This document shows, in pieces, positions 1,148 through 22,381 of a DNA stretch of 22,381 nucleotides. The notes below the pieces were generated by a model, which saw nothing but the letters and a program-made list of their open reading frames with translations, had not been told where the DNA came from and did not search any database. The DNA comes from a virus. Every line of letters starts with the position of its first letter. Position 1 is the stretch's first letter. The translations under genes and the position numbers were made by a program. The stretch is taken from positions 1 to 22,381 of the IMG/VR virus record IMGVR_UViG_3300028392_000314. One strand, 5' to 3'.

Positions 1148-1458
1148 TGGCACTCAACAGTTTATATCCAGCAACAAGTCCATACTATACTACGGGTGTA
1201 GTTAATAACAAATTTTTAGATGTTATGGTAGATAGACCTATTCCTAAATTAGGTAGTGATAGATACTGGACTATTACACAACAATATAATCTACGTCCTG
1301 ATATGTTAGCATATGACTTGTATGCTAATCCTAAACTATGGTGGGTGTTTGCTAGTAGAAACCCAAACGCACTAGCAGACCCATTCTTTGACTTTACTAC
1401 TGGTACGTCAATATATCTTCCAGAAAACTCTACATTGATTTCAGTATTAGGATTATAA
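1147..1458 (+). CDS. 53: Baseplate wedge protein gp53 (short form)
   Basis: 103 residues from ATG at 1147 to TAA at 1456-1458. The pattern is typical of the gp53 family: a segment with YPATSPYY and an early hydrophobic strand, FLDVMVDRPIP, then WTITQQYNLRPDMLAYDLYANPKLWWVFASRNP, a proline/phenylalanine turn (DPFFDF) and a final IYLPE strand. T4 gp53 (about 196 aa) has a LysM-like part and clamps neighbouring wedges together around the gp6/gp25/gp7 core. The block YNLRPDMLAYDLYANPKLWW followed by an IYLP strand looks LysM-like. This copy is about half the T4 length and keeps mainly that core, as in several T4-like phages of aquatic bacteria. The start is set by GGAGGT upstream and the 1-nt overlap with the previous stop. 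Confident on family from the overall pattern and the neighbours. Confidence 0.83.
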   Translation: MALNSLYPATSPYYTTGVVNNKFLDVMVDRPIPKLGSDRYWTITQQYNLRPDMLAYDLYANPKLWWVFASRNPNALADPFFDFTTGTSIYLPENSTLISVLGL

Positions 1459-4381: not shown

Positions 4382-4395
4382 AAAGAGAATAAAAT

Positions 4396-7300
4396 ATGGC
4401 AACTAATGTATTCAAACCTAGAGGCGCAACAAGTGCATCAAAACCTGATGCAGGTGGAGCCGTATTACGCTCTGTACCTGTATTTGGTGTAGTCAAAGAT
4501 AACATCGACCCCATACGTTCTGGTCGACTGCGTGTGTATATTGCAGACATGGGCGGCGCTGACCCTAATGACGCTGAATCATGGATTACCGTTAACTATA
4601 TGACACCTTTTTATGGTTTAACTCAGGGTGATGCACCCAAAGAAGGTTATGGAACATATTTACAGAATCAAAGTGCATATGGTATGTGGTTTGCACAGCC
4701 GGATATTGATACAACAGTAGTCTGTGTGTTTATCAATGGTGATCCTGAATATGGTTATTGGATTGGGTGTGTGCCTGAACCAGAGGCATTGTATACCGTG
4801 CCTGCTATGGGTTCTGCTGAAACAGTTGTTGTTAATGAGAATGAGGGTACCAGTTACGGCGGCGCAACAAAATTACCAGTAGCAAACATTAATAAAAACA
4901 ATCAAGCAATCAATGAATCACCTACTTTTTTTAATCAGCCAAAACCAGTGCATAGCTATCTTGCCGGCGTGTTGAATCAACAAGGTTTAATTAGAGATAC
5001 GATTAGAGGCACAATAGGCACATCAGCGCAACGTGAAACACCAAGTAGAGTTGGTTGGGGCGTAAGTAGTCCCGGACGTCCAATCTATGAAGGCGGATTT
5101 ACAGACGAAACTATAGCGGATGCGGCAAATCAAGGTAGTAAACAACCGGCTTTAAGAGTAGTAGCACGTAGAGCAGGTCATTCTATTGTAATGGATGATG
5201 GTGATTTGATTGGTCGTGACCAATTAATAAGATTGCGTACTAGTTTAGGACATCAAATATTAATGAGTGATGATGGTCAATGTTTACACATCATTCATGC
5301 TAACGGACAAAGTTGGATAGAGTTAGGTAAAGAAGGCACGATTGATATGTACGCCACCAACTCAGTTAATATCAGAACACAGGGTGATTTGAATTTACAT
5401 GCTGATAACAATATCAATATGCATGCCAAAAAAGATTTAAACATCTATGCTGAAAATATTACAACCAATAGTGATAAGAAAACTAATATCAAAGTAGGTA
5501 CTGATTATGCTACGTCTGTAAATGGTAAAACAACATTGAAGTCAACGGGCGCAATGAGTTTGAAATCATCAGGTGAAGCTAGCTTTGCCAGCACAAATAA
5601 TACATTCATTAATGGTAAAAAGATAAACTTAAATACTGGTGAGGCTTCAACTATACCAGAAGATGTTAAGCCATTACCAACTAACGCACATACTGATTCA
5701 CTGTACGATTCACAAAAAGGTTGGGCGGCAGCACCGGCTGCATTATTAAGTATTACAAGTAGAGCACCTGCACATGCACCTTGGGCAGCCGCAAATCAAG
5801 GAGTTGATGTAAAAATTAACAATGATGCTGATGCAAACTTTCCAAACAATCCGGCTCCTGCAATTCAAGCGGCAAACAATTCAACAACTACTCCGGCAAC
5901 ACCAGTTAATGCTAGTGTAGCATCAACTGTTCCTGTTACCGGTGCTATAAGTGGAGCATTGGATAAGAATTCAACAACAGCTATGGTAGGACAAGTTGCA
6001 ACAATTGCACAATCTGTTCCTAATGTGGCTGCCGCTATTAAAAGTGGTGCCGGAGTAGTATCTTCAACAGTTAATGGTGCAATACAGAATATAGCGGCAA
6101 TTGGTAAAATGGCGCAATCACCACAACAACTTGAGGCGTCAGGCGTTCTTAAAGCAGGTGCAGGTTTACTTGTTGCTAATTTAGTTCAAGGTGGCAAGAC
6201 TGTACAGCAAGCACTAACTAATAATTTGTTTGCAGGCAAACCCGGTGCAGAGAATCTAACAAACTATTTAAATAATCCAACAGCTCAAGTGGCAACACAA
6301 GTTGCTAATTTTCAACAAGCACAAACTCAATTAACTAACGCAGGATTACTTACAGGTAAAGAAAGTGCAGGACAACTTGCGGGTATCGTAACCGCCGGTG
6401 CATTAGCAGGGCCAACTGCCGCTGTCAATGCAATTAAGTCAGCGGCAGGCGCATTAGGATCAACAATTACAGGACCAATAGCCGCACTAGGCGGAGCCGC
6501 AAACAGTTTGTTAGGTAGTGCAGCCAGTCAATTAGGAGCAGGTAATTTTGCAGGTAATTTAGCGAGCACAGTAACAGGAGGACTAAGTTCTATTGCCGGA
6601 TCATTGAATGGGCTAGCAAAAAGTCTAACCGGTGGTGCAGAGAGTTTATTAAATTCTGCTAAAGGTATTGCAGGAAGTGCTTTTGCGGCAATTAAGAACT
6701 CATTTCCTAAATTAACAGCAGGTATACCTCAAAATCTTAAACAAATTGCTGATAAGGCTACAGCAGCCGCACAAAATGCTACCACTGAATTACAAGCAAG
6801 CGTTACCCAGGCAGCAAATGCGTTTAATGTATCAGGCGCAAACGCGGCTTCAGTTGCCTCAGGTGCCGCAAGTTCTGCTGTTAACGGCGCGGCATCTAGT
6901 GTAAATAATTTAGTATCTAGTGCAGGTGCAGCCGCTACTACTGCGGCAGGTTTGGTGACAGCAGGATTAACTAATGGTGCAAATTCATTATTACCAGCAT
7001 CAGTCTCTACTGGATTAGGCTTTCTACCGGGAGCACAAAAGGCAGTTGCTTCTATTGTTAATAATGCAAAAGGTGCATTAAACAATATTCCCGGTACTGC
7101 TGGAATATCAACAGCATTAAGTCAAGTTACTGCGGCACTAAGCTCAGGTGGACCATTGGGAAATATAGCTTCTGATTTAATTACCAAATTAAAAAATCCG
7201 GGTGAATCACTACAAGCGTTGGCCAGCATCGGATTGCCCGCTGGCGCCGCGGCGCAATTGAATTCTGCAATTAGCTCTTTAAATTCGGGTGGTGCAATAC

Positions 7301-7731
7301 CAATCAAACTACCTGTCATCAGTGTTAATACAGTCGATAGAACAGCAATTACAGCACAGATTGGTGCAGTATTCGGTAGTACAAAGATTCCTGTACCAAA
7401 CTATAGCGGAAACCCCGCTTCAACAGGAGAAACTGCATCAACCACTGCGGCTGAAAAACTTGTACAAAAAGAAGAAAAAATTAAAGAATTTGATGCTAGA
7501 TTTGCTGTTGTTCTTAATAAAGCAAAAGCAAAGAGAGTGGAATTTGACGCGGCAGTAGAAGCATATGTAGAGGCAAAAAATAACTTACCAGCAGGTGATC
7601 CGGCAATTGGTGATGCTTATAATATAGCAAAAGCTTTGGCAGCAGAATTGAAAGATCTAAAATTAGAAGGCACCAAAATATTAGATGAAAAAGTAGATTT
7701 CCTAATTCAGAAGTCAAGAGAAACAGCATAA
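4396..7731 (+). CDS. 5: Baseplate hub/spike protein gp5-like: OB domain plus beta-helix, no lysozyme, long Ala-rich extension
   Basis: 1111 residues; ATG at 4396 with GAG at 4385-4387 as a weak ribosome site. Residues about 27-133 form the OB-fold domain of gp5/VgrG proteins (VFGVVKDNIDPIRSGRLRVYI, ending at WIGCVPEPEAL), which binds the gp27-like ring. Residues about 255-418 are a run of short polar strands with alternating pattern (NSVNIRTQGDLNLHADNNIN and following), typical of the triple-stranded beta-helix that forms the membrane-piercing needle. T4 gp5 has a lysozyme domain between these two parts; here only about 120 residues lie between them, with no lysozyme-like sequence. Residues about 440-1005 are Ala/Gly/Ser/Asn/Thr-rich and helical-looking. 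Residues about 1015-1111 form a charged coiled coil (EKLVQKEEKIKEF and on). The gene follows the hub gene and precedes gp25, which fits a spike. Family assignment is secure; the role of the extension is unknown. Confidence 0.87.
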   Translation: MATNVFKPRGATSASKPDAGGAVLRSVPVFGVVKDNIDPIRSGRLRVYIADMGGADPNDAESWITVNYMTPFYGLTQGDAPKEGYGTYLQNQSAYGMWFAQPDIDTTVVCVFINGDPEYGYWIGCVPEPEALYTVPAMGSAETVVVNENEGTSYGGATKLPVANINKNNQAINESPTFFNQPKPVHSYLAGVLNQQGLIRDTIRGTIGTSAQRETPSRVGWGVSSPGRPIYEGGFTDETIADAANQGSKQPALRVVARRAGHSIVMDDGDLIGRDQLIRLRTSLGHQILMSDDGQCLHIIHANGQSWIELGKEGTIDMYATNSVNIRTQGDLNLHADNNINMHAKKDLNIYAENITTNSDKKTNIKVGTDYATSVNGKTTLKSTGAMSLKSSGEASFASTNNTFINGKKINLNTGEASTIPEDVKPLPTNAHTDSLYDSQKGWAAAPAALLSITSRAPAHAPWAAANQGVDVKINNDADANFPNNPAPAIQAANNSTTTPATPVNASVASTVPVTGAISGALDKNSTTAMVGQVATIAQSVPNVAAAIKSGAGVVSSTVNGAIQNIAAIGKMAQSPQQLEASGVLKAGAGLLVANLVQGGKTVQQALTNNLFAGKPGAENLTNYLNNPTAQVATQVANFQQAQTQLTNAGLLTGKESAGQLAGIVTAGALAGPTAAVNAIKSAAGALGSTITGPIAALGGAANSLLGSAASQLGAGNFAGNLASTVTGGLSSIAGSLNGLAKSLTGGAESLLNSAKGIAGSAFAAIKNSFPKLTAGIPQNLKQIADKATAAAQNATTELQASVTQAANAFNVSGANAASVASGAASSAVNGAASSVNNLVSSAGAAATTAAGLVTAGLTNGANSLLPASVSTGLGFLPGAQKAVASIVNNAKGALNNIPGTAGISTALSQVTAALSSGGPLGNIASDLITKLKNPGESLQALASIGLPAGAAAQLNSAISSLNSGGAIPIKLPVISVNTVDRTAITAQIGAVFGSTKIPVPNYSGNPASTGETASTTAAEKLVQKEEKIKEFDARFAVVLNKAKAKRVEFDAAVEAYVEAKNNLPAGDPAIGDAYNIAKALAAELKDLKLEGTKILDEKVDFLIQKSRETA
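5716..7420 (+). other. Ala/Gly-rich extension of the spike protein
   Basis: Residues about 441-1008 of the gp5-like protein. The first part (about 570-670) has two related-looking helical units: SPQQLEASGVLKAGAGLLV, and about 65 residues later a unit around LTNAGLLTGKESAGQLAGIV. The middle (about 667-770) is a long run of Ala/Gly/Leu/Ser with weak amphipathic periodicity (for example SLLGSAASQLGAGNFAGNLA). It then continues through Ala/Val/Asn-rich helices to a short beta-like stretch (PIKLPVISVNTVDR) before the C-terminal coiled coil. The composition would suit helices that pack into a bundle or interact with membrane, but there is no clear transmembrane segment flanked by charges. Confidence 0.7.
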
Positions 7732-7750: not shown

Positions 7751-8203
7751 ATGTCAACATATATAGGTTTTTCAACAGTAAATGCTAATAGACCCAGAAC
7801 TACTAGAGCCCCTGGGGGCAGTGCCGGCGGTACGGGTAGTATGATAGATCCTACTATTCCTGGTAAAAAATTCAGAATGGTTGACGGCCCGTTGGTATTA
7901 AGAGATTTTATTAATGCACTTAATATTAACAAAGGTGAAAAAGTGGGTCAACCCGGCTATGGAACAGATATCTGGAGTTACATTTTTGAGCCTAACGATG
8001 CCGACACGCAATTCAAAATTCAAACTGAAATACAACGTGTTGCTAGCTCGGATCCTAGAATACTATTAAACTCGGTTAAATCGTTTGTTCAACAAAATGG
8101 AATACTTTTAGAAGTAGAAGTTGCTATTCAACCCTTCAACGATGCTTCTATAGTCAACGTATTTTTCAACAACATTACTAATCAAGCTACCCTCAACCCT
8201 TAA
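7751..8203 (+). CDS. 25: Baseplate wedge protein gp25 (GPW/gp25 family)
   Basis: 150 residues; ATG at 7751 preceded by AGGA at 7741-7744. The first 45 residues are Gly/Arg/Thr-rich. The GPW/gp25 fold then follows: VLRDFINALNINKGEKVGQP, PGYGTDIWSYIFEP, a long helix around DADTQFKIQTEIQRVASSDP, then strands LLEVEVAIQP and ASIVNVFFN. T4 gp25 is 132 aa. In gp25 and its type VI secretion relative TssE, a conserved Glu-Pro-Arg motif joins the wedge to the sheath or core bundle. Here the equivalent is Asp-Pro-Arg at residues 101-103. The protein forms the inner wedge core with gp6 and gp53 and is the anchor for the first sheath ring. It lies 19 nt after the spike gene and 45 nt before gene 6, the usual pairing 25-6. 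Very confident. Confidence 0.95.
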   Translation: MSTYIGFSTVNANRPRTTRAPGGSAGGTGSMIDPTIPGKKFRMVDGPLVLRDFINALNINKGEKVGQPGYGTDIWSYIFEPNDADTQFKIQTEIQRVASSDPRILLNSVKSFVQQNGILLEVEVAIQPFNDASIVNVFFNNITNQATLNP

Positions 8204-8248: not shown

Positions 8249-11200
8249 ATGGCCACCAGTTCAAGACAATCAGCATTATTTGGCGTTAACGATTGGCAAG
8301 CAATCTACCAAACGTTTCGTGAAGCCGACTTCAGAAGTTATGATTATGAAACCCTGCGTAAGAGTTTCATCGATTATTTACGTGCATACTATCCTGAAAC
8401 ATTCAATGATTATATTGACAGTTCAGAATTTATTGCCCTCATGGACGTTATGGCGTTTATGGGACAGGGCCTATCTTTCCGCAATGATTTAAACACCCGT
8501 GAAAACTTTATCGATACTGCTGAACGCCGTGATAGTGTTATCAAACTTGCTAACTTAGTTAGCTATAATCCAAAAAGAAACGATACAGGTCAAGGTTATA
8601 TTAAGGTAACAAGCATTCGCACTACTGAAAATATAACCGATATGAACGGTTATAATTTAAGTAATCAGATTATTCTTTGGAATGACCCGGCTAACGTAAA
8701 TTTTTTAGAACAATTCAATACAGTGGTTAATGCCACATTGATTAACAGTCAGCGTGTTGGTCGACCAGGTAACTCAGCAGATTTGCTAGGAGTTAAAACA
8801 GACGAATACAGTATTAACATTCCACCTAATAGTTTGCCCATTGCTCCTTTTAGTTCAGTGGTTGACACAATTAACATGAACTTTGAACTAGTTTCTGTAA
8901 CCAGTGTCAATGAAGATTATGTTTATGAGATTCCACCCGCACCAAGTGGTAGATTTAACATGGTTTATCGTAATGATAAATTAGGGTATGGTAGTCCAAA
9001 CACAGGATTCTTTTTCTATTTTAAACAGGGTGGATTACAATCATACGATTTTAACTTAGCGCAACAAATTTCAAACCAAGTAGTAGATATTGATATTCAA
9101 GGTATCAATAATACAGATACATGGTTATATCAACTAAACACTGACAACGGTGGCACAACACTTTGGAAACAAGTTGAAAGTGTTTATGCTAACGCTCAAC
9201 TTCAAACTGAAACAAGTAGAAAGAAAATCTTCTCAGTTGTTTCACGTTTCAATGATCAAGTTAGTTATGCTTTTGGTGATGGAGTATTTTCGGAAGCACC
9301 AGTTGGAACTTTCAGAGCATATGTTCGTGCAGGTAATGCATTGACATATACTATTGCTCCCTCTGAGATGCAAGGTATTCAAGTAACGTTTCAGTATATT
9401 AGTCGATTAGGTAGAACAGAGGCACTTACAGTAGGATTAGAATTACAATCAACAGTATCAACAGCACAGGCTAGAGAAACTTTAGCAAACATTAAATTAC
9501 GTGCTCCTGCTCGATATTATACACAAAACAGAATGGTTAATGGAGAAGATTATAACAACTTCCCATATACGCTATACAACTCAATTGTTAAAAGCAAAGC
9601 AATTAACCGAAGTTCTGTTGGTGTATCTAAAAACTTAGACCTACTTGACCCTACTGGAAAATACTCCAGCACTAATTCATTTGCAAACGACGGTGGAGTA
9701 TATCAAAATAGTAATAATGGTTACCTATTATTGACTATTACAAACACCGGCAATATTATTCAGTTCCTGACTGACACACTAGCGGCTTCATTGTCAGACA
9801 CCAGAGCAAAACAATATTACTTACAAAATTATACACGATATAATATAAACGCCGCATCCGGTGATGGAACAGTTTATTGGAATACTAGCACAGTTAACGC
9901 TAATAGCATCACTGGTTATTTCTATAATATATCTGGATCAGCGGATGTTCCAATTGCAATTGGTACATACTCAACACATAATGTAAAGTATATTACAAAG
10001 GGCGCAATGATAAAAGTTACTGCACCAAGTGGCTATTACTTTGATATAAACAACAGATTAGTATCTGGCATTGCAAGCCCAAGCGATACTACATATTATT
10101 GGACAACTGCATTAGCAATTGTAGGTGACGGATATAATAACGGTCAAGGTAATTTCAGTAATGGCACAGGCCCGGTAACATTGAATGGTTATGTACCGAG
10201 CGGAGCAATCATTACTCAAGTAATTCCTGCATTTAGCAACACTTTACCTAATCTTGTATTACAAGAATGTATTACCAGAATGGAATTAAATCAAGATTTC
10301 AGCTTAGTGTTTAATAATTCATTATTAGTAACACAAAATCGCTGGTCGGTTGAAAATTATAATACTTCTAATTGGTTTGTTAATTTTCAAAGCACCGGTG
10401 ATAATACTTATAGAATTTATTATAGAGCATTGCGTTATTATTTTGGTAGCGTGTCGGATACTCGTTTTTGGTATGAAACAGGTAAGCTTGTTTATGATCC
10501 TTTTACTGGTAAAATTTTAGCAGACAATGTTAAAATGCTAGCAACAAACACACAACCAAGTAGTAATTATCCATTGGCAAAACCAGTTGATGTGGCAGTT
10601 ATTGGTCAGACAGTAGAGTCAGATGGATATGTGAACGATTTTGAAGTAGAAGTCTCTAGTGTAGATGTTAACAATACTGAAATCATTCTTGACCCTGACT
10701 TCTTTCAAACAGTAACCGGTTATGTAACAGGCTCGACTAATATTGGTATATATGCATTCTTTGAATTGATTCAAGATGCAGTGAATTTATCACGTTACCA
10801 ATTAATTGATTCAGCTAATGTAGCATATCAATATTCAAACCAATCTTTGATTGAAGTCGTTAAGTATGAGTATCCGTTAGGACAATTGTTTTATGCATAT
10901 AGCGAGAACACATTCTACACAACTGTACAAGATACTACAGTTACAACTCCGTACTATATTGTTACCCCACAACCACAATATTTAATGCAACCAGGTCGTC
11001 AAGGTTTACAGTTCCAGTATAAGCACAACAGTAACAATACAACACGGATTGATCCTGCTACTACGAATATCATTGATTTGTATTTGGTAACACAGGCATA
11101 TTATACCGCTTACCAAAACTGGATACAAGATACAACAAATACTGTCCCCAAACCGGCAGTGCCAACTATTAACGAGTTACAACAAGCATATGGTAAGATT

Positions 11201-11620
11201 GATGACTATAAGATGTTGACAGATAGTGTAGTAATGAATAGCGTCCGTTTTGTTCCACTGTTTGGGTCTAAAGCACCTGAGCAATTACGAGGTACTGTTA
11301 AAGTTATACCATCACCAAATAGTAGCGCAAGTAACAGTGAAATTCGTAGTGCAGTATTATCTGCTATGAATAGCTATTTTAATATTAATAATTGGAATTT
11401 TGGTGACACGTTCTACTTCTCTGAGTTGAGTGCATACTTGCATACACAATTGGGTGACTTAGTAAGTTCAATAGTTTTAGTTCCAAATAATCCCACAATG
11501 TCATTTGGTGATTTGTATGAAATCAAATCAGCACCGTTTGAAATTTTTGTTAACGGTGCGACAGCAAATGATGTGGTAGTAATTGCAGCCTTGACACCCG
11601 TGCAATTACAAATAAGATAA
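8249..11620 (+). CDS. 6: Baseplate wedge protein gp6, enlarged
   Basis: 1123 residues; ATG at 8249 with AGAG 7 nt upstream. The N-terminus is the gp6 wedge signature: FREADFRSYDYETLRKSFID, then a segment around PETFNDYIDSSEF and LMDVMAFMGQGLSFRNDLNT, and ENFIDTAERRDSVIKLANLV. The C-terminus is also diagnostic: LQFQYKHNSNNTTRIDPATT with NIIDLYLVTQAYY, then FVPLFGSKAPEQLRG and NNWNFGDTFYFSELSAYLH. gp6 dimers form the ring of the wedge core, contacting gp25, gp53 and gp7, and transmit the structural change that starts contraction. T4 gp6 is 660 aa. The extra length seems to lie mostly in the middle, roughly residues 540-770, rich in Tyr, Asn and Gly. It ends 24 nt before the giant gene. Very confident on identity; limits of the inserted region are approximate. 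Confidence 0.94.
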   Translation: MATSSRQSALFGVNDWQAIYQTFREADFRSYDYETLRKSFIDYLRAYYPETFNDYIDSSEFIALMDVMAFMGQGLSFRNDLNTRENFIDTAERRDSVIKLANLVSYNPKRNDTGQGYIKVTSIRTTENITDMNGYNLSNQIILWNDPANVNFLEQFNTVVNATLINSQRVGRPGNSADLLGVKTDEYSINIPPNSLPIAPFSSVVDTINMNFELVSVTSVNEDYVYEIPPAPSGRFNMVYRNDKLGYGSPNTGFFFYFKQGGLQSYDFNLAQQISNQVVDIDIQGINNTDTWLYQLNTDNGGTTLWKQVESVYANAQLQTETSRKKIFSVVSRFNDQVSYAFGDGVFSEAPVGTFRAYVRAGNALTYTIAPSEMQGIQVTFQYISRLGRTEALTVGLELQSTVSTAQARETLANIKLRAPARYYTQNRMVNGEDYNNFPYTLYNSIVKSKAINRSSVGVSKNLDLLDPTGKYSSTNSFANDGGVYQNSNNGYLLLTITNTGNIIQFLTDTLAASLSDTRAKQYYLQNYTRYNINAASGDGTVYWNTSTVNANSITGYFYNISGSADVPIAIGTYSTHNVKYITKGAMIKVTAPSGYYFDINNRLVSGIASPSDTTYYWTTALAIVGDGYNNGQGNFSNGTGPVTLNGYVPSGAIITQVIPAFSNTLPNLVLQECITRMELNQDFSLVFNNSLLVTQNRWSVENYNTSNWFVNFQSTGDNTYRIYYRALRYYFGSVSDTRFWYETGKLVYDPFTGKILADNVKMLATNTQPSSNYPLAKPVDVAVIGQTVESDGYVNDFEVEVSSVDVNNTEIILDPDFFQTVTGYVTGSTNIGIYAFFELIQDAVNLSRYQLIDSANVAYQYSNQSLIEVVKYEYPLGQLFYAYSENTFYTTVQDTTVTTPYYIVTPQPQYLMQPGRQGLQFQYKHNSNNTTRIDPATTNIIDLYLVTQAYYTAYQNWIQDTTNTVPKPAVPTINELQQAYGKIDDYKMLTDSVVMNSVRFVPLFGSKAPEQLRGTVKVIPSPNSSASNSEIRSAVLSAMNSYFNINNWNFGDTFYFSELSAYLHTQLGDLVSSIVLVPNNPTMSFGDLYEIKSAPFEIFVNGATANDVVVIAALTPVQLQIR

Positions 11621-11644: not shown

Positions 11645-14600
11645 ATGGCAGCAAGAATTAGAACTTTAAATTTTTTACCTGAAGTATTCAGAACTCCTAC
11701 TAATGCACAATTTTTAGGAGCCACATTAGATCAACTTGTAGACCAACCAAATACAATGCGTATTCAGGGCTATATTGGTAGTAAATTTGGATATGGTATA
11801 AATGCTAAAGACAAATATGTAATAGAACCTACAAAAGTTCGTACGGATTATCAGTTAGATCCGGGAGTAGTATTTACTAAGACAAATACTTCCACAGCTA
11901 CAGATTTCATCACGTATCCTGGCATCATTGATGCATTAAAATTAAACGGTGCTGTTACTGATAATAACGATAGATTGTTTAATAGTCAATTCTATTCATG
12001 GGATCCGTTTGTTGATTTAGATAAAGTAATCAACTTTAACCAATACTATTGGTTGCCATTAGGACCACCTTCGGTAACAGTAGCAACGGATATAGTGTAT
12101 AACGCACAAGATTATAATGTTCAAGATGATCCTAATGCTTATATCATTTCAAGTGATATTAATCCAGATGGTTCCGCTAACCCAACATTAACTCTTATCC
12201 GCGGTGGCACTTATACTTTTACCGTAAATCAAAATAGTCCCTTCTGGATTCAAGGTCAACCTGGTGTTACTGGATATGATCCAAATCAACCAAATCTATT
12301 AACTCGTGACGTATTAGGAGTTACTAACAACGGAGCAGAGACTGGCATTGTAGAATTTATTGTTCCTTATAAAAATGCACAGGATGAGTATAATTTTCCT
12401 GGCAACAATTTAGTTGACGTAGTATCATCTGCACCGTTTGATGACATTGAGGGTAGATTATTAAGTGATGTTGTTGACATTGACGGAGTTACTGCTCTTG
12501 AAGGTTTAACGGTAATGTTCTACAATACCGGTGTTCCCGATGAACAAGGTTTTATAGGTCAATATTATGATACTACTTTATATGATGAAGAAACAAATGA
12601 GTCTGCACCCAATGAAGGTGGCGCACCATATGTATTTCCCGGTACAATCATAAATGATGCTAATTATGAAGGTGGTTATTATACTAATGTATCTGCAACA
12701 TTTTACAGAGTAACATATGTAGGTGATCCTACTAATCCCGTTATCAAATTAATACCTGCTTCAAGTATTCCTACTAATGAAAAAATTACTGCAAATTATG
12801 GCACACAATGGAAAGCACGTAATTTTTATAGAAATGTTCAAGGTAATATTAATATAGTTCCTTATCTAAGCAGTTTGTTAGATACATTATATTATCAAGA
12901 TGGCACTGTTTCAAATAAAGTAGGCGTTATCAGGTTGATTAATAGTAATATTACTAATCAAATCAACGTACTTGAAATTTTAGGTCAACCAAATTATACC
13001 GCACCAAACGGTATAGTATTCACTAATGGATTAAAAGTTACCTTCAACGGTGATATTTATCCTACCAGTTATAAGACAGGTGAATACTACGTACAAGGTG
13101 TTGGTACTGCAATTGAATTAATCAACACTATTGACTTGATAGTTCCAGAATCATTTACTGAGGGAACGTACAATCCTTGGGATACATTACCATACGACAT
13201 TGGTAACTATGATGTTACATTATATATTCCTGTAAAACAAGATTACATTACAATTGCTAGAAATAGTATAGATAGAAATCCATGGTCACGAAGCAATCGA
13301 TGGTTCCATATTGATGTTATCAATGCCACTGCAACATATAATAATAATCCAAGTATTGCCACAACATATGCAACACAGGATAACAAGGCAAAACGCCCAA
13401 TTATTGAATTTTATCCAAATTTAAAATTGTTTGATAATTGTATAGTTGGTAAACAACCTATAGACTTCTTTGATGTGAGAACAACTGATGCATTCACTCA
13501 AGTCGCCGGTCAATATAATTACTATCCTGATGTAGAAGTTTATACTACTGCAAATGCTACTATTGCCACAGCCTCATCAGCTACATCTACCACAATTTCA
13601 ATACTTGCAAGTAATGTTTCAAAAGGTGCGTTTCAAGTAGGACAATTTATTACTGACTCTGCAGGAAAATTACCTAGAAATTCTCAAATTACTTCCATTA
13701 ATGGAACTACAACATTAACACTTACAGTTGGATGGAGTAACCCCACATCATTCATTGGTGTGTCAAATGTATCATTGGTTGCTAATGATATATCTAATGA
13801 TAATTATGCATTGTACGATGGTGCTAGAATTGTATTCTCAATTGATAATGATGCTAATGTTAGAAATAAAATTTATGTAGCTCGTTTTTCAAGTATTCAC
13901 GGAACAACTCCTGTCATAACATTAACTGAAGCAGACGATGGTTTGGTGCTACAGAATGAAGGCACAGTAGTATATAAGGGTTATTATAATCAAGGTAAAG
14001 ATTTTTACTATTATTTTAACAATGATCCAACTGTATTAGAAAATGAATGGCAAGAAGGCCAACAAAAAACAACTGTTAATCAAGCACCATTGTTTGATGT
14101 GTTTGATGATGCCGGCGTAAGTTTTGGTGATAAGGAAATTTACATTGGTTCATCATTTAAGGGTAATAAATTATTCAGTTATGGCATTGGATCAGGAATC
14201 AATGATATTGTATTAGGATTCCCACTTCGGTATAGTTCCGTTAATAATGTAGGCGATATTAGTTTTGATGTGCCGTTAAATTCTAAAACATTTAATTATG
14301 TTCGAGGAACAACTCCTATTACTAGAAAAGTTAACACAGGCTATGTACACAACTATAGTGATTTAAATACAAGAACCAGAGCATTAGGTTGGCAGACGGC
14401 TGTTGCAGAAAGTCGCCAATATCAAATATTCTCATTTAACTATGTAGGTAACAGTGGTGTCACAACTTATATTTGTGATATAGGCGCAGCCACAAATACA
14501 GTTTGGCCTAACATCCAAGTTTATGTAAACAATGTATTACAAGACACCAACACTTACACCTATACTATTAATCCAACAACTACAGTAGTTAATTTTACAG

Positions 14601-17600
14601 TACCTAATACGCTAGTAGACACAGTAGTTGAAATTACATTATTGAGTGACCAAGTAAGTAAGACTGCTTATTATCAGATACCTAATAATTTACAGAATAA
14701 CCCCTTCAACACTGATATAACAACAGCTAACGTAGGTGATATTCGTGGACAGTATCAAAGTATTTTCTACAATAATCCAAATACAACCGGTACAGTATTT
14801 GGCGCAAATAATTATCGTGATTTGGGTAATCTTGTACCATGGGGTAATAAAATTATTCAGAATAGTGCATCATTGGTGTTGCCCGGCACCTTTTTAAGAA
14901 AGCCAGGAGTCAATTTATACGACTCATTGCAGTATAATAGTAATCAATATATTTCATTCAAAACTTTACTAATAGATACTGTTAATAAAACAGAATATAA
15001 TGTATATCAATCTTCGGCAGTAATGCTAGATGATGCACTGGATCAAATCACCATATCTAAAGTAGATAGCGCGCCGTTCTTCTGGAGTGATATGCTACCT
15101 AGTAAATCACCTTATGCTAGCAACTCATATACTTTTGCAAATTCATTAGATGTTAGTAGATATCCATTAACCAGAATTTATAATTTTGATACTGCAAACT
15201 ATTATGGAGTATTGGTATATCTAACACGTACTGTACAAGGTTATACTAGTATTACTCAATTGGTTATTGGAATTGATTATACTATCAGCGCAACAAGCCC
15301 GGCACTAACAGTTGAGACTGATTTGTTACCCGGAGATATTATTACAGTTAATGAATATTATCAAACCTACGGATCGTATGTTCCAAATACCCCTACAAAA
15401 TTAGGCTTGTACCCATCATTCATTCCTGAAGTAATACTAGATGAAAACTATACTAACCCTACATACTTTATTCGCGGACATGATGGGTCTTATACAAAAT
15501 TATATGGAGATTATATTGACGGGCATCTCGTAGACTTTAGAGATAAAGTCTTGCTTGAGTTTGAAACTCGAATCTATAATAATTTAAAATTAAGTAATAT
15601 TATTCCTATAAGAGATTATGATGTTGTTCCTGGATTTTTCAGAACTACTGATTATTCTTATGATGAATTCTTATCAATTTATTCTCAGTTTTTCTTAAAC
15701 TGGGTTGGACAAAATCGGGTTGAGTATAAACAACAAATTGGATATACTCCTACTAACCAATTTTCATACAACTACAGCCAATCTGGCAATAAAATTAACA
15801 ATGCTCAAATTCAACAAGGATACTGGAGGGGTATATATCAATACTACTATGACACATCACAGCCTGATGTAGCACCTTGGGAAATGATAGGATTTACTAG
15901 TCAACCTGCATGGTGGACAACACGTTATGGTCCTGCACCATATACCAGTGATAACTTAGTATTATGGGGTGATTTAGCCGCAGGTCTTAATTGGAATAAC
16001 GGAGATCCTGTTATAGTAACACAATGTATTAGACCACAGCTACTACAAGTATTACCTGTTGATAGTAACGGTAATCTAGTATCACCGTTTGACGCAATTG
16101 TAGGTAATTATGACGGTAGAAGTTTCCGCAATGATTGGAAAGTTGGGGACGTTGCATCAACAGAATTTTCGTATCGTAGAAGTAGTTCATGGCCGTTTGA
16201 CTTAATGAAAATATTAGCATTAACTAAACCTGCTGAGTTTTACAACTTAGGCGTTGATGTTGACAATTACAAATACAATAGTGAATTCAATCAATTCTTA
16301 GTCAATGATAGAAGCCATTTAGTAATTGCAGATGTTCAAATTTATGGTGATGGCATTGCCAAAACAAGCTATATCAACTGGATTGTTGATTATGAAAAAC
16401 AAGTTGGTATCGATTCAACACAAACAACTATAGATTTATTAGCCAACTTAGATGTTCGATTAATATATCGTGTTGCTGGCTTTACTGATAAAACTCTTGT
16501 TAACTTTTATGTTGAAAAAGGATCGCCTAATAGCAACAACGCATCACTGTTGATACCCTCTGAAAGTCTGAATGTATTATTATATGATAATATTCCCTTC
16601 AATAAAATTATATACAGTGGTGTTATTATACAAAATTCCGGTACTGGCTGGAAAGTATATGGTAACTCACAAACAAAAGCATATTTTACGGTAAGTAAAC
16701 CAAAAATCAATGGTAACTATAATTTAGTGACAGTTGAAGGTGAATCAGTACAAGTTGCTAAAGATTATTTTGAAAACACAGAAATATTAATACCGTATGG
16801 TACTGAGTTTGTATCTAAACAAGATTTGGCTCAATTTATTGGAAGTTATAGTAATTATTTAACAACACAGGGTGTATTGTTTAAAGAAATAGAATCTGGA
16901 ATAGATGTTAACTGGAATCAAATGATTGCAGAATATTTATATTGGACTCAATCTGGTTGGGGGAAAGGTAGTTTACTTAATTTAAACCCGGCAGCCAATT
17001 TGATTACTATTCAGAAAGATAGTTGTGTAGTACAACCATTGACACTACAACGTCAAAACTTTATATTAAATCAAAATTTATATCCAATTCAATCTGTTGA
17101 TTTAGCAGTAGTGCGAGATGACACACTATTTACTGCTACACCTCTTAATCAAGGTGATACCGTTGCGTATGGTCAGTTTAATATTAGTAACTTTGAACAC
17201 GGTGTTGTATTCAACAACGTTACATTATTCAACGATGTGATTTATAATTTGATTACCGGACTACGGCAGAATCGTATTATAACTCGTGGTACAAAAACTG
17301 CTGACTGGAACGGCACTATTGATGCACAGGGTTTTATCCTTAATCAAGATAATATACAAGAATGGAATAATATAACCAAATATACTAAAGGCGTTATTGT
17401 AAAATATAAAAATAAATATTGGGTTTCATTAAGAGTATTAGAACCAAGTATGACATTCGACGGTAGGTACTGGAAAGAAACAGACTATAATGAAATTCAA
17501 AAGGGATTACTACCAAACCCAAGTACACGTAGTTATGAAAGTGTATTATATTACAATACAAACACTCCTAACTTAAGTAAAGATGCTGACTTATTAAGTT

Positions 17601-20600
17601 GGTCATTGGTTGGATACCGCCCTCGCGATTACATGGCTCTGGCTGACCTAACTGATATTACTCAAATCAATGTTTACAAAAACTTGATTAAAGAAAAAGG
17701 CACAAAGATTGCCGCAGAAAACTTTAAAGGTATTAATTTACCACAAGGTGGCATTGATTATGATATCTATGACAACTGGGCCATTAAGACCGGCGAGTTT
17801 GGTGGCGTGTTAGATAATAACTTTATTGACTTTAAATTAAATCAAAATGAATTGACCGGAAATCCTTCTATAGTTGGATTAACAACAGGCACCTACACAG
17901 ACGGGGTACAACAAGAAGTCCCATTGTATTCTGTATTCAATTACGGCAGACCTATTACTAATCCTAATGTTTTACCAACGATTCCCGCAAATACACCTAA
18001 CAGATTATATCCGGATGCAGGTTATGTTAATTTTAATGACATAACTACGTATGGCTATTACTATAATGATTTGAATCTTGCACAAACACCTTTGTCAAAA
18101 TTATATGTAGGTGAATATGTTTGGGTCGCTGACTATAACGGCACTTGGCAAGTATATACGCCTATTTCAAATGGTAACTTGATTCAAGTATTAAACAATT
18201 TGAATGGGACTGTTACACTACAATTTGCTGAACCACATGGATTAACAAAGTATCAAACTATTGCAATCATTAACTTTGATGACGCGGTTAACGGTTATAG
18301 AATTGTACAAGCAGTTGTAGATAATTATAGAGTTACGATTGCACTATCATTAGTTTCTACTATAGCAAGATTGACTAACACCAATAGTATTGTAATGCGT
18401 TTCCAGTCACAGCGTGTAAGCCAACCAAGTGATATTGTTAACTTACCTTTATTGAATACTGAATTTGTTAAAAACAAAGTATGGGTAGATACTAATACTG
18501 ACGGTGATTGGGCTGTATATCGTAAAAGCATTAATTATCAACTAGACTTAGAGTTATTAAAGACCGGATCAGAAACATTTGGTAGTGCAGTTGCAACTAC
18601 AAGTGATTTAGGTTATTTAATTGGTGATGCTGATTTAGGTGTAGCATATCGTTACACATATAACCCTGTATTCGAACGCTATGACCTAGCACAAACACTA
18701 ACTGGTTCTGCTAGTTTTGGTTCATCAATAGGATACACCGGTTCAACTTTTGCTATTAGTCAACCTACGGGAACATTACTTGCAGATAGAAAAATAAAAA
18801 TATACACATTGATAAGCACACTTCAAGTTAATGAGTTACAATTTTTACAAACAATTCAAGCACCAACTGGCATAACAAATTGGGGAACTAAAACAGAATT
18901 TTCTGGAGATGGCAACTGGTTATTCATTAGTGCATATGAACAAAATGCATTCTATGTATATCGTAAATCTCAAGTTACTGGTTTGTATGAATATAACACT
19001 ATTATAACATTGGGTAGTCTTGTTACCGGTGATAATTTCTCATATGCATTGGCAACTAACTATTATGGTAATACATTAGTAGTTGGCGCACCCGGAGTTG
19101 ACACCGGTGTTACTAATAATACAGGCACATCTTATATATTTGAACGAGTGATGCAAAACTTTGAAGTGAGGTTTACTAGTCAGCCATTCGTGCCGCAAAC
19201 ATTTAATTTAGTAGCCGGTCCTTTAACTAGGACAGCAATCGGAAGTTCTATTAACTCTAGCAATGCCATTACATTGTCATCAGTTGCAGGACTGTCAGAT
19301 GGAGTGAATGGAACACCAATTGTATTTACAGGTAACGTATTTGGTGGTATATCACTAAATCAAGTTTATTATGTTAAATTAATTTCTGGTTCAACAATCA
19401 CTCTTTCATTGACAAGAAACGGAACAACATTGGTGTTAGCAAACACACCATCTGGTACAATGACCATGGTTGCACAAACATCACCAATCTATGTTAGTGT
19501 CAATGGAACATTAATAGATGACAATAACTATGCTGTAATTGGATCATTGTTAAATGTATATCAATCATTAAACGCAGGTGATATACTAACAGTTAGTGGA
19601 TCTACCTTTGTGTTGATACAACAATTTACCGCAACTGACACTATTACAATTGGCGAGCAATATGGTTATAGTGCAGACTTGGATACATATGGTAATGAAC
19701 TTTTAATTGGCGCCCCTTTCCAAATTAATTCACAAAACAAAGAAGGCACAATTTATCGTTATACTGATGGCGGCGGAAGTTATGGTATTATTACTGGTAC
19801 GATTGATTGTCAAGTCACCACACCAACGACTATTTTATTGAATGGTTATGCTGTTGCTATACCTGTAGGTAATGCATCAGTGGTTGCGGCAGCAATAGCA
19901 GGATCAAATATTACTAATGTAACCGCAACATCAATAGATAATAAACTTGTCATATCGTTGATTAACATAGAATTAGCAACAATCAATGACAAGTTAGATA
20001 TTATTACACTTACTGGTAATGCAATGTATCAATTGGGTATTTCAAAATACACATTTACACAAACTATCACTGACCCGCATACCGCCGGTAGAACTCAATT
20101 TGGTACTGTTATCAAATTTAATGATAATGGTTCATTTGTAGCAAGTGCACCGGCATCAGCACGTTATGAAGCAACTACATTCGATTCAACCGATGATGAT
20201 AATTATAACAATGATACATTGTTTGATAATAATACAACACAGTTTGTAGATATCGCAAGAAACGCCGGCGCAGTTTACATGTTTGACTATGCTGAAAATT
20301 ATAATGAAAATTTAACAAATGTTGGTCAATTCATATACGCTCAAAGTGTAAACGCATTGAATATAGACTATGGTGCACAACCATACTATGGTACTGCGTT
20401 AGACTTTAATGATAATACGGTAGTAGTTGGTACGCCTGGCTTTAGACCGGGATATAACAATGGTCAAGTAATTATCTACACAAACTCATCTGGTCTAGCG
20501 GATTGGTCTGTATATCGTCAACCAGAAATAGCAGTCGATGTTAACGGCATTCAAAACGCACAACTATACAGTGCATCAACTAACAACACATTAATAAACT

Positions 20601-22381
20601 TAGATTACTTTGATCCATTACAAGGAAAAATATTAGGCGTAGTATCAGAAAACTTAGATATAATTTCTAATGCTGATCCTGCATCATATAATAGTCCTAA
20701 TACAACTATATCTGGATCTAGTGTTTGGGGCACTAAACAATTAGGTAAGTTGTGGTTCAATACAAGTTCTACTAAATTTGTTAACTATCATCAGTATAAT
20801 GATGTAGTATATAATAGCAAATGGTGGGGTCGTGTATTCCCTGGTAGTCAAGTTACAATTTACAGTTGGATTACAAGTGATGTGGTTCCGGCCGAATATA
20901 CAGCTACCGGTACTCCATTGAACTTAACAGATTATGCTATTGAATATGTATTAAATTCAACCGGAGCTATTACCCCTGTATATTTCTACTGGGTAAGAAA
21001 TACTAATATCATCTTCAACCAGATAGGTAAAACATTAAGTGATACTATATGTGAGGCATATATTAGTGCACCACAGGCATCTGGAATCGCTTACTTTGCA
21101 CCTATACAATCTAATGTAATGGGTTTGTATAATACAAGTGAGTATGTCAATTCAACTGATACAGTAATGCATATTGGTTTTGCTACTGGTACAAATGATG
21201 ATGATTCGCATAGTATTTACAGTTTGATTCGTTCAAACTATGTAGATGATTTCTTACCCGGATTGCCTGCATTAACAAGTTTACCTCCCCTATCATTATA
21301 TGATAGAATGTTAGATAGTATGAGTGGAGTAGATGAATCAGGTGCCATTGTTCCTGATCCATACTTACCAAAACCAGTACAGAGTGGTATATTAGTTCGT
21401 CCTCGTCAAGGCTTCTTCTATTCACGCTTTGGTGCATTAAAGAATTACTTAACACTTGCTAACCAAGAATTAGCACAGATTCCGTTTACAGAAACTCAAT
21501 CTAGTAAATTTTTATACACCGTTGGACCTATAAATCCAAGTACAGGATTACCATTCTATGAAACAACTGACTACTGGGAATATATAAACTGGTGGCAACC
21601 CGGCTATAATGATAATACTAAATCTGCTATGTTAGTAGAATCATATTTTCAATTAGCAACTATTAATGCACAGAATGGATTAATTGTAACTGTTAATAAA
21701 AACGGTGCCGGCTTCCAAGAAACATACAGATATGATAGCACGGTATCTACTTGGGTCCGTATAGGATTACAAAATGGAACAATTCAATTTAAGAGTTCAT
21801 TGTGGGATTATGAAACAGCACGATTAGGGTTTGGTGATAATTTCTTTGACACAACACCATTCGACACATATCCAAGTCAAGAAACACGCTCTATCACTCG
21901 ATTCTTAAATGAAGAATTACCGAGTGAAATATTTGCTTTCAGAAATCAAGGATTGATTTTATTGTTTAACTATATAATGAGTGAAACAATAGAGAGTCAA
22001 AATTATCTGCCATGGTTAAACAAGACATCATTTATTGATGTAGCACACACGATCCGTGAATTACTTCCTTTAGAAGTATTTCAAAGTGATAATCAAGATT
22101 TCTTGTCTGGATACATCAATGAAATTAAGCCGTATCATGTAGTTGTTAAAGATTTCTTATTCAAGTACACTGGTACAAACTTATGGGCCGGCAATATTAC
22201 TGACTTTGATTTACCAGCACAATATAACACAAATTTACAGAAATATATAACACCTGAATTAGTATATGCTAATCCAAGCGGCGACAGTCAATATTTACCA
22301 ACAGATGCTATATGGCAAGACCCTGCATATACAAATTGGTTTAACAATTACGGCGTGAGTATAACCGGAGTCAATGCTTAT
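11645..22381 (+). CDS. Giant baseplate wedge/adhesin-like structural protein, 3' end outside window
   Basis: ATG at 11645; the frame stays open through 3579 codons to the last base, so the protein is at least 3579 residues and its C-terminus is unseen. The N-terminus (RTLNFLPEVFRTPTNAQFLG, TLDQLVDQPNT) looks like a baseplate attachment domain. Further along: a beta domain at about 180-241 (LTLIRGGTYTFTVNQ, PFWIQGQPG); residues about 1330-1440 with DYSYDEFLSIYSQFFLNWVG and GYWRGIYQYYYDT; a carbohydrate-binding-like motif at 1907-1943; a probable seven-bladed FG-GAP propeller at about 2312-2977; and a late region with YWEYINWWQPGYN and INEIKPYHVVVKDFLFKYTG. Three related beta modules are scattered through it. 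There is no signal peptide, membrane segment or enzyme motif. It occupies the place of T4 gp7 (1032 aa) and the outer wedge genes directly after gene 6, so an outer wedge or receptor-facing role is inferred. I do not recognise the whole protein. Alternatives are a tail-fibre-like arm or a fusion of several wedge proteins. Confidence 0.8.
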   Translation, partial: MAARIRTLNFLPEVFRTPTNAQFLGATLDQLVDQPNTMRIQGYIGSKFGYGINAKDKYVIEPTKVRTDYQLDPGVVFTKTNTSTATDFITYPGIIDALKLNGAVTDNNDRLFNSQFYSWDPFVDLDKVINFNQYYWLPLGPPSVTVATDIVYNAQDYNVQDDPNAYIISSDINPDGSANPTLTLIRGGTYTFTVNQNSPFWIQGQPGVTGYDPNQPNLLTRDVLGVTNNGAETGIVEFIVPYKNAQDEYNFPGNNLVDVVSSAPFDDIEGRLLSDVVDIDGVTALEGLTVMFYNTGVPDEQGFIGQYYDTTLYDEETNESAPNEGGAPYVFPGTIINDANYEGGYYTNVSATFYRVTYVGDPTNPVIKLIPASSIPTNEKITANYGTQWKARNFYRNVQGNINIVPYLSSLLDTLYYQDGTVSNKVGVIRLINSNITNQINVLEILGQPNYTAPNGIVFTNGLKVTFNGDIYPTSYKTGEYYVQGVGTAIELINTIDLIVPESFTEGTYNPWDTLPYDIGNYDVTLYIPVKQDYITIARNSIDRNPWSRSNRWFHIDVINATATYNNNPSIATTYATQDNKAKRPIIEFYPNLKLFDNCIVGKQPIDFFDVRTTDAFTQVAGQYNYYPDVEVYTTANATIATASSATSTTISILASNVSKGAFQVGQFITDSAGKLPRNSQITSINGTTTLTLTVGWSNPTSFIGVSNVSLVANDISNDNYALYDGARIVFSIDNDANVRNKIYVARFSSIHGTTPVITLTEADDGLVLQNEGTVVYKGYYNQGKDFYYYFNNDPTVLENEWQEGQQKTTVNQAPLFDVFDDAGVSFGDKEIYIGSSFKGNKLFSYGIGSGINDIVLGFPLRYSSVNNVGDISFDVPLNSKTFNYVRGTTPITRKVNTGYVHNYSDLNTRTRALGWQTAVAESRQYQIFSFNYVGNSGVTTYICDIGAATNTVWPNIQVYVNNVLQDTNTYTYTINPTTTVVNFTVPNTLVDTVVEITLLSDQVSKTAYYQIPNNLQNNPFNTDITTANVGDIRGQYQSIFYNNPNTTGTVFGANNYRDLGNLVPWGNKIIQNSASLVLPGTFLRKPGVNLYDSLQYNSNQYISFKTLLIDTVNKTEYNVYQSSAVMLDDALDQITISKVDSAPFFWSDMLPSKSPYASNSYTFANSLDVSRYPLTRIYNFDTANYYGVLVYLTRTVQGYTSITQLVIGIDYTISATSPALTVETDLLPGDIITVNEYYQTYGSYVPNTPTKLGLYPSFIPEVILDENYTNPTYFIRGHDGSYTKLYGDYIDGHLVDFRDKVLLEFETRIYNNLKLSNIIPIRDYDVVPGFFRTTDYSYDEFLSIYSQFFLNWVGQNRVEYKQQIGYTPTNQFSYNYSQSGNKINNAQIQQGYWRGIYQYYYDTSQPDVAPWEMIGFTSQPAWWTTRYGPAPYTSDNLVLWGDLAAGLNWNNGDPVIVTQCIRPQLLQVLPVDSNGNLVSPFDAIVGNYDGRSFRNDWKVGDVASTEFSYRRSSSWPFDLMKILALTKPAEFYNLGVDVDNYKYNSEFNQFLVNDRSHLVIADVQIYGDGIAKTSYINWIVDYEKQVGIDSTQTTIDLLANLDVRLIYRVAGFTDKTLVNFYVEKGSPNSNNASLLIPSESLNVLLYDNIPFNKIIYSGVIIQNSGTGWKVYGNSQTKAYFTVSKPKINGNYNLVTVEGESVQVAKDYFENTEILIPYGTEFVSKQDLAQFIGSYSNYLTTQGVLFKEIESGIDVNWNQMIAEYLYWTQSGWGKGSLLNLNPAANLITIQKDSCVVQPLTLQRQNFILNQNLYPIQSVDLAVVRDDTLFTATPLNQGDTVAYGQFNISNFEHGVVFNNVTLFNDVIYNLITGLRQNRIITRGTKTADWNGTIDAQGFILNQDNIQEWNNITKYTKGVIVKYKNKYWVSLRVLEPSMTFDGRYWKETDYNEIQKGLLPNPSTRSYESVLYYNTNTPNLSKDADLLSWSLVGYRPRDYMALADLTDITQINVYKNLIKEKGTKIAAENFKGINLPQGGIDYDIYDNWAIKTGEFGGVLDNNFIDFKLNQNELTGNPSIVGLTTGTYTDGVQQEVPLYSVFNYGRPITNPNVLPTIPANTPNRLYPDAGYVNFNDITTYGYYYNDLNLAQTPLSKLYVGEYVWVADYNGTWQVYTPISNGNLIQVLNNLNGTVTLQFAEPHGLTKYQTIAIINFDDAVNGYRIVQAVVDNYRVTIALSLVSTIARLTNTNSIVMRFQSQRVSQPSDIVNLPLLNTEFVKNKVWVDTNTDGDWAVYRKSINYQLDLELLKTGSETFGSAVATTSDLGYLIGDADLGVAYRYTYNPVFERYDLAQTLTGSASFGSSIGYTGSTFAISQPTGTLLADRKIKIYTLISTLQVNELQFLQTIQAPTGITNWGTKTEFSGDGNWLFISAYEQNAFYVYRKSQVTGLYEYNTIITLGSLVTGDNFSYALATNYYGNTLVVGAPGVDTGVTNNTGTSYIFERVMQNFEVRFTSQPFVPQTFNLVAGPLTRTAIGSSINSSNAITLSSVAGLSDGVNGTPIVFTGNVFGGISLNQVYYVKLISGSTITLSLTRNGTTLVLANTPSGTMTMVAQTSPIYVSVNGTLIDDNNYAVIGSLLNVYQSLNAGDILTVSGSTFVLIQQFTATDTITIGEQYGYSADLDTYGNELLIGAPFQINSQNKEGTIYRYTDGGGSYGIITGTIDCQVTTPTTILLNGYAVAIPVGNASVVAAAIAGSNITNVTATSIDNKLVISLINIELATINDKLDIITLTGNAMYQLGISKYTFTQTITDPHTAGRTQFGTVIKFNDNGSFVASAPASARYEATTFDSTDDDNYNNDTLFDNNTTQFVDIARNAGAVYMFDYAENYNENLTNVGQFIYAQSVNALNIDYGAQPYYGTALDFNDNTVVVGTPGFRPGYNNGQVIIYTNSSGLADWSVYRQPEIAVDVNGIQNAQLYSASTNNTLINLDYFDPLQGKILGVVSENLDIISNADPASYNSPNTTISGSSVWGTKQLGKLWFNTSSTKFVNYHQYNDVVYNSKWWGRVFPGSQVTIYSWITSDVVPAEYTATGTPLNLTDYAIEYVLNSTGAITPVYFYWVRNTNIIFNQIGKTLSDTICEAYISAPQASGIAYFAPIQSNVMGLYNTSEYVNSTDTVMHIGFATGTNDDDSHSIYSLIRSNYVDDFLPGLPALTSLPPLSLYDRMLDSMSGVDESGAIVPDPYLPKPVQSGILVRPRQGFFYSRFGALKNYLTLANQELAQIPFTETQSSKFLYTVGPINPSTGLPFYETTDYWEYINWWQPGYNDNTKSAMLVESYFQLATINAQNGLIVTVNKNGAGFQETYRYDSTVSTWVRIGLQNGTIQFKSSLWDYETARLGFGDNFFDTTPFDTYPSQETRSITRFLNEELPSEIFAFRNQGLILLFNYIMSETIESQNYLPWLNKTSFIDVAHTIRELLPLEVFQSDNQDFLSGYINEIKPYHVVVKDFLFKYTGTNLWAGNITDFDLPAQYNTNLQKYITPELVYANPSGDSQYLPTDAIWQDPAYTNWFNNYGVSITGVNAY
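12182..12367 (+). other. Cupredoxin-like beta domain in the giant protein
   Basis: Residues about 180-241. The pattern LTLIRGGTYTFTVNQ, then PFWIQGQPGVTGYD, then GIVEFIVP resembles a beta-sandwich motif that recurs in T4-like aquatic phage structural proteins, where I remember a His before the PFWI segment. Here that position is Ser (NSPFWIQ), so metal binding through that residue is not expected. Fold assignment is by pattern only. Confidence 0.45.
14513..14646 (+). repeat. Beta module, copy A, in the giant protein
   Basis: Residues about 957-1001: QVYVNNVLQDTNTYTYTI followed by strands ending VVEITLLS. It shares with two later segments (15209-15360 and 19484-19630) the order: hydrophobic strand, short turn, a Tyr-containing strand, then a strand before a Gly-Asp or Val-Asp turn leading into an I-T or E-I-T strand. 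This is the type of module often used in phage fibre and adhesin stalks. Confidence 0.45.
15209..15360 (+). repeat. Beta module, copy B, in the giant protein
   Basis: Residues about 1189-1239: VLVYLTRTVQGYTSITQLV, then GIDYTIS, then LLPGDIITVNEYY. It aligns by eye with copies A and C through the Y-T-I strand and the GDIITV turn-strand. Confidence 0.45.
17363..17473 (+). other. CBM5/12-like motif in the giant protein
   Basis: Residues 1907-1943: EWNNITKYTKGVIVKYKNKY, with W, three Y residues and a closing RYWKE. The spacing W-x(6)-Y-x(2)-G-x-I/V-V-x-Y-x(3)-Y-W, then a W after about 20 residues, matches the small chitin/carbohydrate-binding CBM5/12 type (also called ChtBD3). Such modules appear in phage adhesins and in chitinases. 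The match is by pattern; binding is not shown. Confidence 0.45.
18122..18163 (+). repeat. W-x-V-Y motif, copy 1, in the giant protein
   Basis: Residues 2160-2173: WVADYNGTWQVYTP. The same motif recurs at 18482-18529 (WVDTNTDGDWAVYRKS, residues 2280-2295) and in shortened form at 20501-20521 (DWSVYRQ, residues 2953-2959). The second and third copies bracket the propeller. Confidence 0.6.
18482..18529 (+). repeat. W-x-V-Y motif, copy 2, in the giant protein
   Basis: Residues 2280-2295, WVDTNTDGDWAVYRKS, just before the first propeller blade. The Asp/Asn-rich turn could hold a metal ion. The DWSVYRQ strand at the end of the propeller resembles its last part, as expected if the first and last blades are closed by matching strands. 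Confidence 0.55.
18578..20575 (+). other. Probable seven-bladed FG-GAP beta-propeller in the giant protein
   Basis: Residues about 2312-2977. Seven segments fit the FG-GAP pattern (F/Y-G/S-x-x-hydrophobic, a turn with Gly/Asn/Asp, then hydrophobic strand and a GAP-like turn, then a V/I-Y-hydrophobic strand). They begin at residues 2312 (FGSAVATTSDLGYLIG), 2358 (FGSSIGYTGSTFAISQP), 2413 (WGTKTEFSGDGNWLFISA), 2465 (FSYALATNYYGNTLVVGAPG), 2673 (YGYSADLDTYGNELLIGAPF), 2819 (FGTVIKFNDNGSFVASAP) and 2914 (YYGTALDFNDNTVVVGTPG). Each is followed by a strand such as YVYRKS, YIFERV, TIYRYTD, AVYMFDY or VIIYTNS. Integrin alpha heads and some bacterial surface lectins use the same fold for ligand binding. 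Two larger segments interrupt it, after blades 4 and 5. Confidence 0.7.
19484..19630 (+). repeat. Beta module, copy C, inserted in the propeller
   Basis: Residues about 2614-2662: PIYVSVNGTLIDDNNYAVIG, then LNAGDILTVSGSTF. It matches copies A and B in order of strands and in the GDI-L/I-TV turn-strand. It is the second half of the insertion between blades 4 and 5; the first half contains a TLSSVAGLSDG segment and a VYYVKLISGSTITLSL strand pair, also adhesin-like. Confidence 0.5.

Follow-up and report, generated by a model that had tools for sequence, protein, structure and literature searches.

The giant virion protein encoded in this phage DNA contains a single FG-GAP beta-propeller at residues ~2308-2958, and its seven blades and integrin-alpha type are well supported by family profiles and predicted structures. 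The propeller is a clade-specific insertion in a conserved scaffold and has been passed down within one large clade that has yet to be cultivated. Taken as a whole, we hold it to be rather probable that this inserted, clade-inherited integrin-type propeller forms a host-facing binding head on the baseplate.

Gene cluster and the giant protein

The material is a 22,381-base IMG/VR virus record, analysed as one strand over its whole length (the window), with its last open reading frame still open at the window end. All features described here lie on the plus strand. The window contains a myovirus baseplate set arranged much as in T4: a gp53-like protein, the hub, a gp5-like spike containing an OB domain, gp25, gp6 and then the giant ORF. 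This includes a gp53-like wedge protein (1141..1458; PF11246, phrog_7145), a gp5-like hub/spike protein with an OB domain (4396..7731; PF04717, phrog_13211, E 1.7e-36), a gp25 homologue (7751..8203; PF04965, E 1.4e-8) and a homologue of the baseplate wedge protein gp6 (8249..11620; phrog_10646, E 4e-258), which lies immediately 5' of the giant ORF. The giant ORF itself (11645..22381; phrog_10938, E 2e-241) covers residues 1-3,579 before running off the window. A longer contig, L001, overlaps the window by 14,101 identical bases and completes the ORF (L001:3365-22021) to 6,219 residues. Intact homologues on other contigs have ~5,300-6,400 residues, compared with 3,300-4,450 in the cultured relatives examined.

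The giant gene lies directly 3' of gp6, the position of the T4 gp7-type wedge gene, and this order is common to phages 121Q and Cassandra. Its PHROG match, phrog_10938, is annotated as "virion structural protein". The preliminary description had called the product a giant baseplate protein; gene order and PHROG 10938 support a virion protein of the baseplate module, and gene order suggests a place for it in the baseplate. Searches for a solved relative of the scaffold found none: against the PDB, scaffold profiles A2 and A5 gave no matches at E <= 1, profile A6 matched only one unrelated chain (E 0.48), and a single-sequence search with the N-terminal scaffold found no useful relative.

Seven blades and their inserts

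Seven FG motifs occur at residues 2312, 2358, 2413, 2465, 2673, 2819 and 2915 of the giant ORF, the first corresponding exactly to window base 18578, and the propeller as a whole extends from about 18566 to 20518. The preliminary description had read seven FG-GAP segments in order between 18578 and 20575, with VVGAPG, LIGAPF and VVGTPG turns. All three turns are present as quoted, and the seven segments are confirmed. The start of that span falls on the first FG motif, but its end lies ~20 residues too far downstream.

Blade 1 (18566..18703, residues 2308-2353, FG at 2312) was delimited using a blade HMM and DSSP on the structural model. It is followed by blade 2 (18716..18859, residues 2358-2405, FG at 2358) and blade 3 (18881..19009, residues 2413-2455, WG at 2413). 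Blade 4 (19034..19627, residues 2464-2661) carries the VVGAPG turn, a Pfam FG-GAP_2 match at residues 2461-2499 and a large insert between strands C and D (19166..19582, residues 2508-2646), which is partly missing from three relatives (L025-L027). This insert contains a VFTG-x-VFGG-YYV repeat, which occurs five times in L001, at residue 2561 in the insert and at 3967, 4070, 4325 and 5898 in the C-terminal half. Blade 5 (19658..20071, residues 2672-2809), with the LIGAPF turn, has a second insert between strands C and D (19769..20047, residues 2709-2801), and blade 7 (20384..20518, residues 2914-2958) carries VVGTPG.

Blade 6 (20099..20350, residues 2819-2902) has a conserved acidic B-C loop of 42 residues (20147..20272, residues 2835-2876; TTFD..DD..N.DTLFDNNTTQFVD). 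With a mean majority fraction of 0.80, it is the most conserved of the loops longer than five residues, and a regular expression for its motif finds it in 100/136 propeller members. Calcium loops of the DxDxDG type are absent from the blades of the window protein, where the sole match in the region (DTNTDG) lies in the N-terminal flank. The same calcium-site expression matched 82/136 regions; these matches were set aside, as the only one in the window falls outside the blades.

Family assignment and predicted fold

When the propeller was searched for by tBLASTn in 50,697 phage records, nothing matched, and relatives were therefore taken from IMG/VR. Pfam FG-GAP_2 (PF14312) matches the region with 30.1 bits (E 5.7e-7), above its gathering cut-off of 23, although it covers one blade in the window; it also matches 40/45 family members (E <= 0.01), with a best E-value of 6.8e-32. 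The profile search proposed in the preliminary description thus recovers the FG-GAP family both in the window and among its relatives. Against PDB sequences, the profile of the 45 family members gave 16 matches at E <= 0.01, every one an integrin alpha chain, with integrin alpha-4 at the top (9e-15); since non-integrin FG-GAP propellers may be scarce in the PDB, this closeness may partly reflect the library.

An AlphaFold2 model of the window region with 24 relatives reached a pTM of 0.77, and DSSP assigns strands A-D in each of the seven blades. The Foldseek matches of this model in the PDB are mixed because of the inserts, with integrin alpha heads among the best. The distant and insert-poor relative L122, whose FG motifs number exactly seven and are almost evenly spaced, gave a cleaner model (mean pLDDT 84.6, pTM 0.85). 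Integrin alpha chains make up all of its top 50 PDB fold matches (best E 4.7e-14), and the better pairs reach TM-scores of about 0.5-0.6. The two predicted models and the profile matches thus agree on the seven-bladed integrin-alpha-type propeller that had been proposed, with four-stranded blades in the window model, and from the fold matches to closed propellers and integrin heads the ring is predicted to be closed.

Two other readings of the domain have to be weighed against this. The motifs could be a chance resemblance in a long beta-rich protein that forms no closed propeller. In a hold-out test, in which one blade was left out of the HMM and then searched for, the omitted blade was usually the next-best site in the protein yet its scores ranged from just -0.9 to 7.6 bits, and the test missed blade 3. 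This test is weak for single blades, and the propeller call draws its strength instead from the agreement between Pfam, the profile of family members and the fold; as two independent models and the seven motifs of the distant L122 concur with them, we consider chance resemblance highly improbable. A generic beta-propeller of the WD40, BNR or lactonase type, outside the FG-GAP/integrin family, is also very unlikely. An initial Foldseek search that used the window model, rich in inserts, did return WD40-type and other propellers too, and Lactonase, PROPPIN and EML propeller models match a few members weakly, but among the family matches FG-GAP_2 is the best and most frequent by a wide margin, and neither the profile matches in the PDB nor the top folds of L122 include anything other than integrin alpha chains.

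Insertion into a conserved scaffold

Both borders of the propeller can be located by comparison with the propeller-less Pseudomonas phage Cassandra, where the alignment stops at residue 2291 and restarts at 2958. Between these points lie ~670 residues here vs ~12 in Cassandra. The N-terminal junction KVWVDTNTDGDWAVYR (18473..18526, residues 2277-2294) runs on from the upstream scaffold and aligns with GKVWIDSINSDNDWAV of Cassandra. A junction strand, DWxVYR, is present in two copies at the ends of the propeller (residues ~2290 and ~2953) and in one copy at the Cassandra site. The second copy forms the C-terminal junction DWSVYRQ (20501..20521, residues 2953-2959). The downstream scaffold block (20522..21364, residues 2960-3240) is conserved in jumbo phages both with and without the propeller. 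The N-terminal and C-terminal flanks stand 349-451 aa apart in 121Q, Cassandra and a Vibrio phage; for members with at least three blades, the median separation is 1,106.

To follow the distribution of the propeller, we used an unrooted tree of the downstream scaffold block from 170 representatives. The propeller is missing from one clade of 33 rows (SH-aLRT 98), to which all five cultured jumbo phages examined belong, while a full-length propeller HMM finds it in 136 representatives, with one contig (L164) doubtful. Blade HMM counts of 0-2 in some members had been read as absence of the propeller; reading of the sequences and the full-length HMM overturned this, revealing divergent propellers instead. 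A single gain or a single loss suffices to explain the distribution on this unrooted tree, and we infer a gain in the clade that carries the propeller, not a loss in the other. It travels with its scaffold, and no swapping was seen.

Divergence and possible function

Across 85 relatives, the mean identity to the window protein is 49% in the propeller, a figure that counts both large inserts too, compared with 62-71% in the scaffold blocks; the C-terminal half stands at 46%. The loops of the propeller also accept additional sequence. A module of ~50 residues (GSFxVGxxYxIxSLGTTxF..GA) is found in three different propeller loops across relatives: after residue 2352 (L003, L005, L008), 2442 (L014, L025, L026) and 2459 (L009, L011). 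A tBLASTn search with this mobile module found no annotated relative. A similar stretch also occurs in the C-terminal half of L001.

Faster divergence and module-accepting loops suggest solvent exposure and a variable partner, as in a host-binding head, and favour a role in host binding. The propeller would then hang off the baseplate as a globular, surface-exposed head that would be first to touch a sugar or protein on the cell surface, and its outer loops would tolerate added modules. By integrin convention, the ligand face is formed by the B-C and D-A loops, and the conserved acidic loop of blade 6 would sit on this face. In a more specific version, which strikes us as unlikely, the propeller would work like an integrin head: this loop would bind a metal to coordinate a ligand on the host, and the clade would sense or grip its host through an integrin-type adhesion domain built into the baseplate.

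Structural docking is also compatible with vertical inheritance and with the conserved loop of blade 6. Propellers often serve as platforms for contacts between proteins, and this one could bind a tail fibre, a whisker or a neighbouring wedge subunit and make no contact with the host itself. That it is confined to one clade without visible swapping speaks for such a role, as does the conservation of the acidic loop, which is among the most conserved parts and is retained across phages of probably differing hosts, as would suit an internal or structural interface. A docking platform sits less well with a propeller that diverges clearly faster than the scaffold blocks, and its loops take inserted modules in different relatives, unlike a packed interface. 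We therefore regard docking as possible but somewhat unlikely, and prefer the host-facing binding head.

Whichever role applies, this is a clean clade-specific domain difference within a conserved virion protein. It bears on host contact by giant phages without recognisable T4-type tail fibres, and propellers of the L122 type offer a defined domain of ~500 residues for binding and structural work.

Relation to integrins and to other phage proteins

The integrin alpha head shares with the window propeller its seven FG-GAP blades of four strands. The integrin has DxDxDG calcium loops, which the window blades lack, while the window propeller, unlike the integrin, has two large C-D inserts and a conserved acidic loop in blade 6. 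The integrin propeller is also N-terminal, whereas this one lies inside a phage virion scaffold. Integrin thigh and calf domains, a transmembrane helix and a beta partner have no counterparts here, as both flanks are phage scaffold. The domain is integrin-like; the whole protein is not an integrin.

Stand-alone FG-GAP propellers in jumbo phages are already known. The "hemagglutinin" of Agrobacterium phage Atu_ph07 (393 aa) is one such protein (fold match 5e-13, with FG-GAP_2 matches), and for the 375-aa gp213 of Sinorhizobium phage AP-J-162 a model has been reported to resemble human integrin 3VI3 (PMC11242549). Both are separate small proteins encoded in another gene cluster, in contrast to the propeller built into the giant protein here, and the giant baseplate-module protein of Atu_ph07 is without a propeller. 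Likewise, the phrog_10938 proteins of RaK2/121Q-like jumbo phages share the same scaffold in the same place after gp6, but in the five examined (3,300-4,450 aa) there is no propeller at the insertion site. The present case differs in having its FG-GAP propeller inside the giant product of the gene that follows gp6, and in having it throughout an uncultivated clade. In a full-text search of one open library, no paper combined FG-GAP, phage and baseplate.

Further repeats and possible binding modules were observed in the giant protein and its relatives. Residues ~4717-5024 of L001, beyond the window, are BNR/Asp-box-like; tBLASTn matched them to tail fibre proteins of Caulobacter phage and to gp7 of cyanophage S-SSM7, and the giant protein may thus carry two propellers. 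S-SSM7 gp7 is a baseplate wedge protein of 3,001 aa, in which a BNR-like stretch resembles the C-terminal half of the giant protein. As a homologue of the scaffold it was unconfirmed, with no match by three profiles and no FG-GAP propeller (E-values calculated over four sequences only). In the propeller-less giant protein of Atu_ph07 (L041), residues 1272-1300 weakly match the chitin-binding-type family CBM_5_12, which also matches one member of A4 at E 1e-6, hinting at other binding modules in the giant-protein family. Finally, Sinorhizobium phage Phosso (PV764938.1, L267:7162-18240) encodes a hypothetical protein of 3,692 residues over which some 30 FG-GAP-like blade matches are spread; these probably correspond to several tandem propellers.
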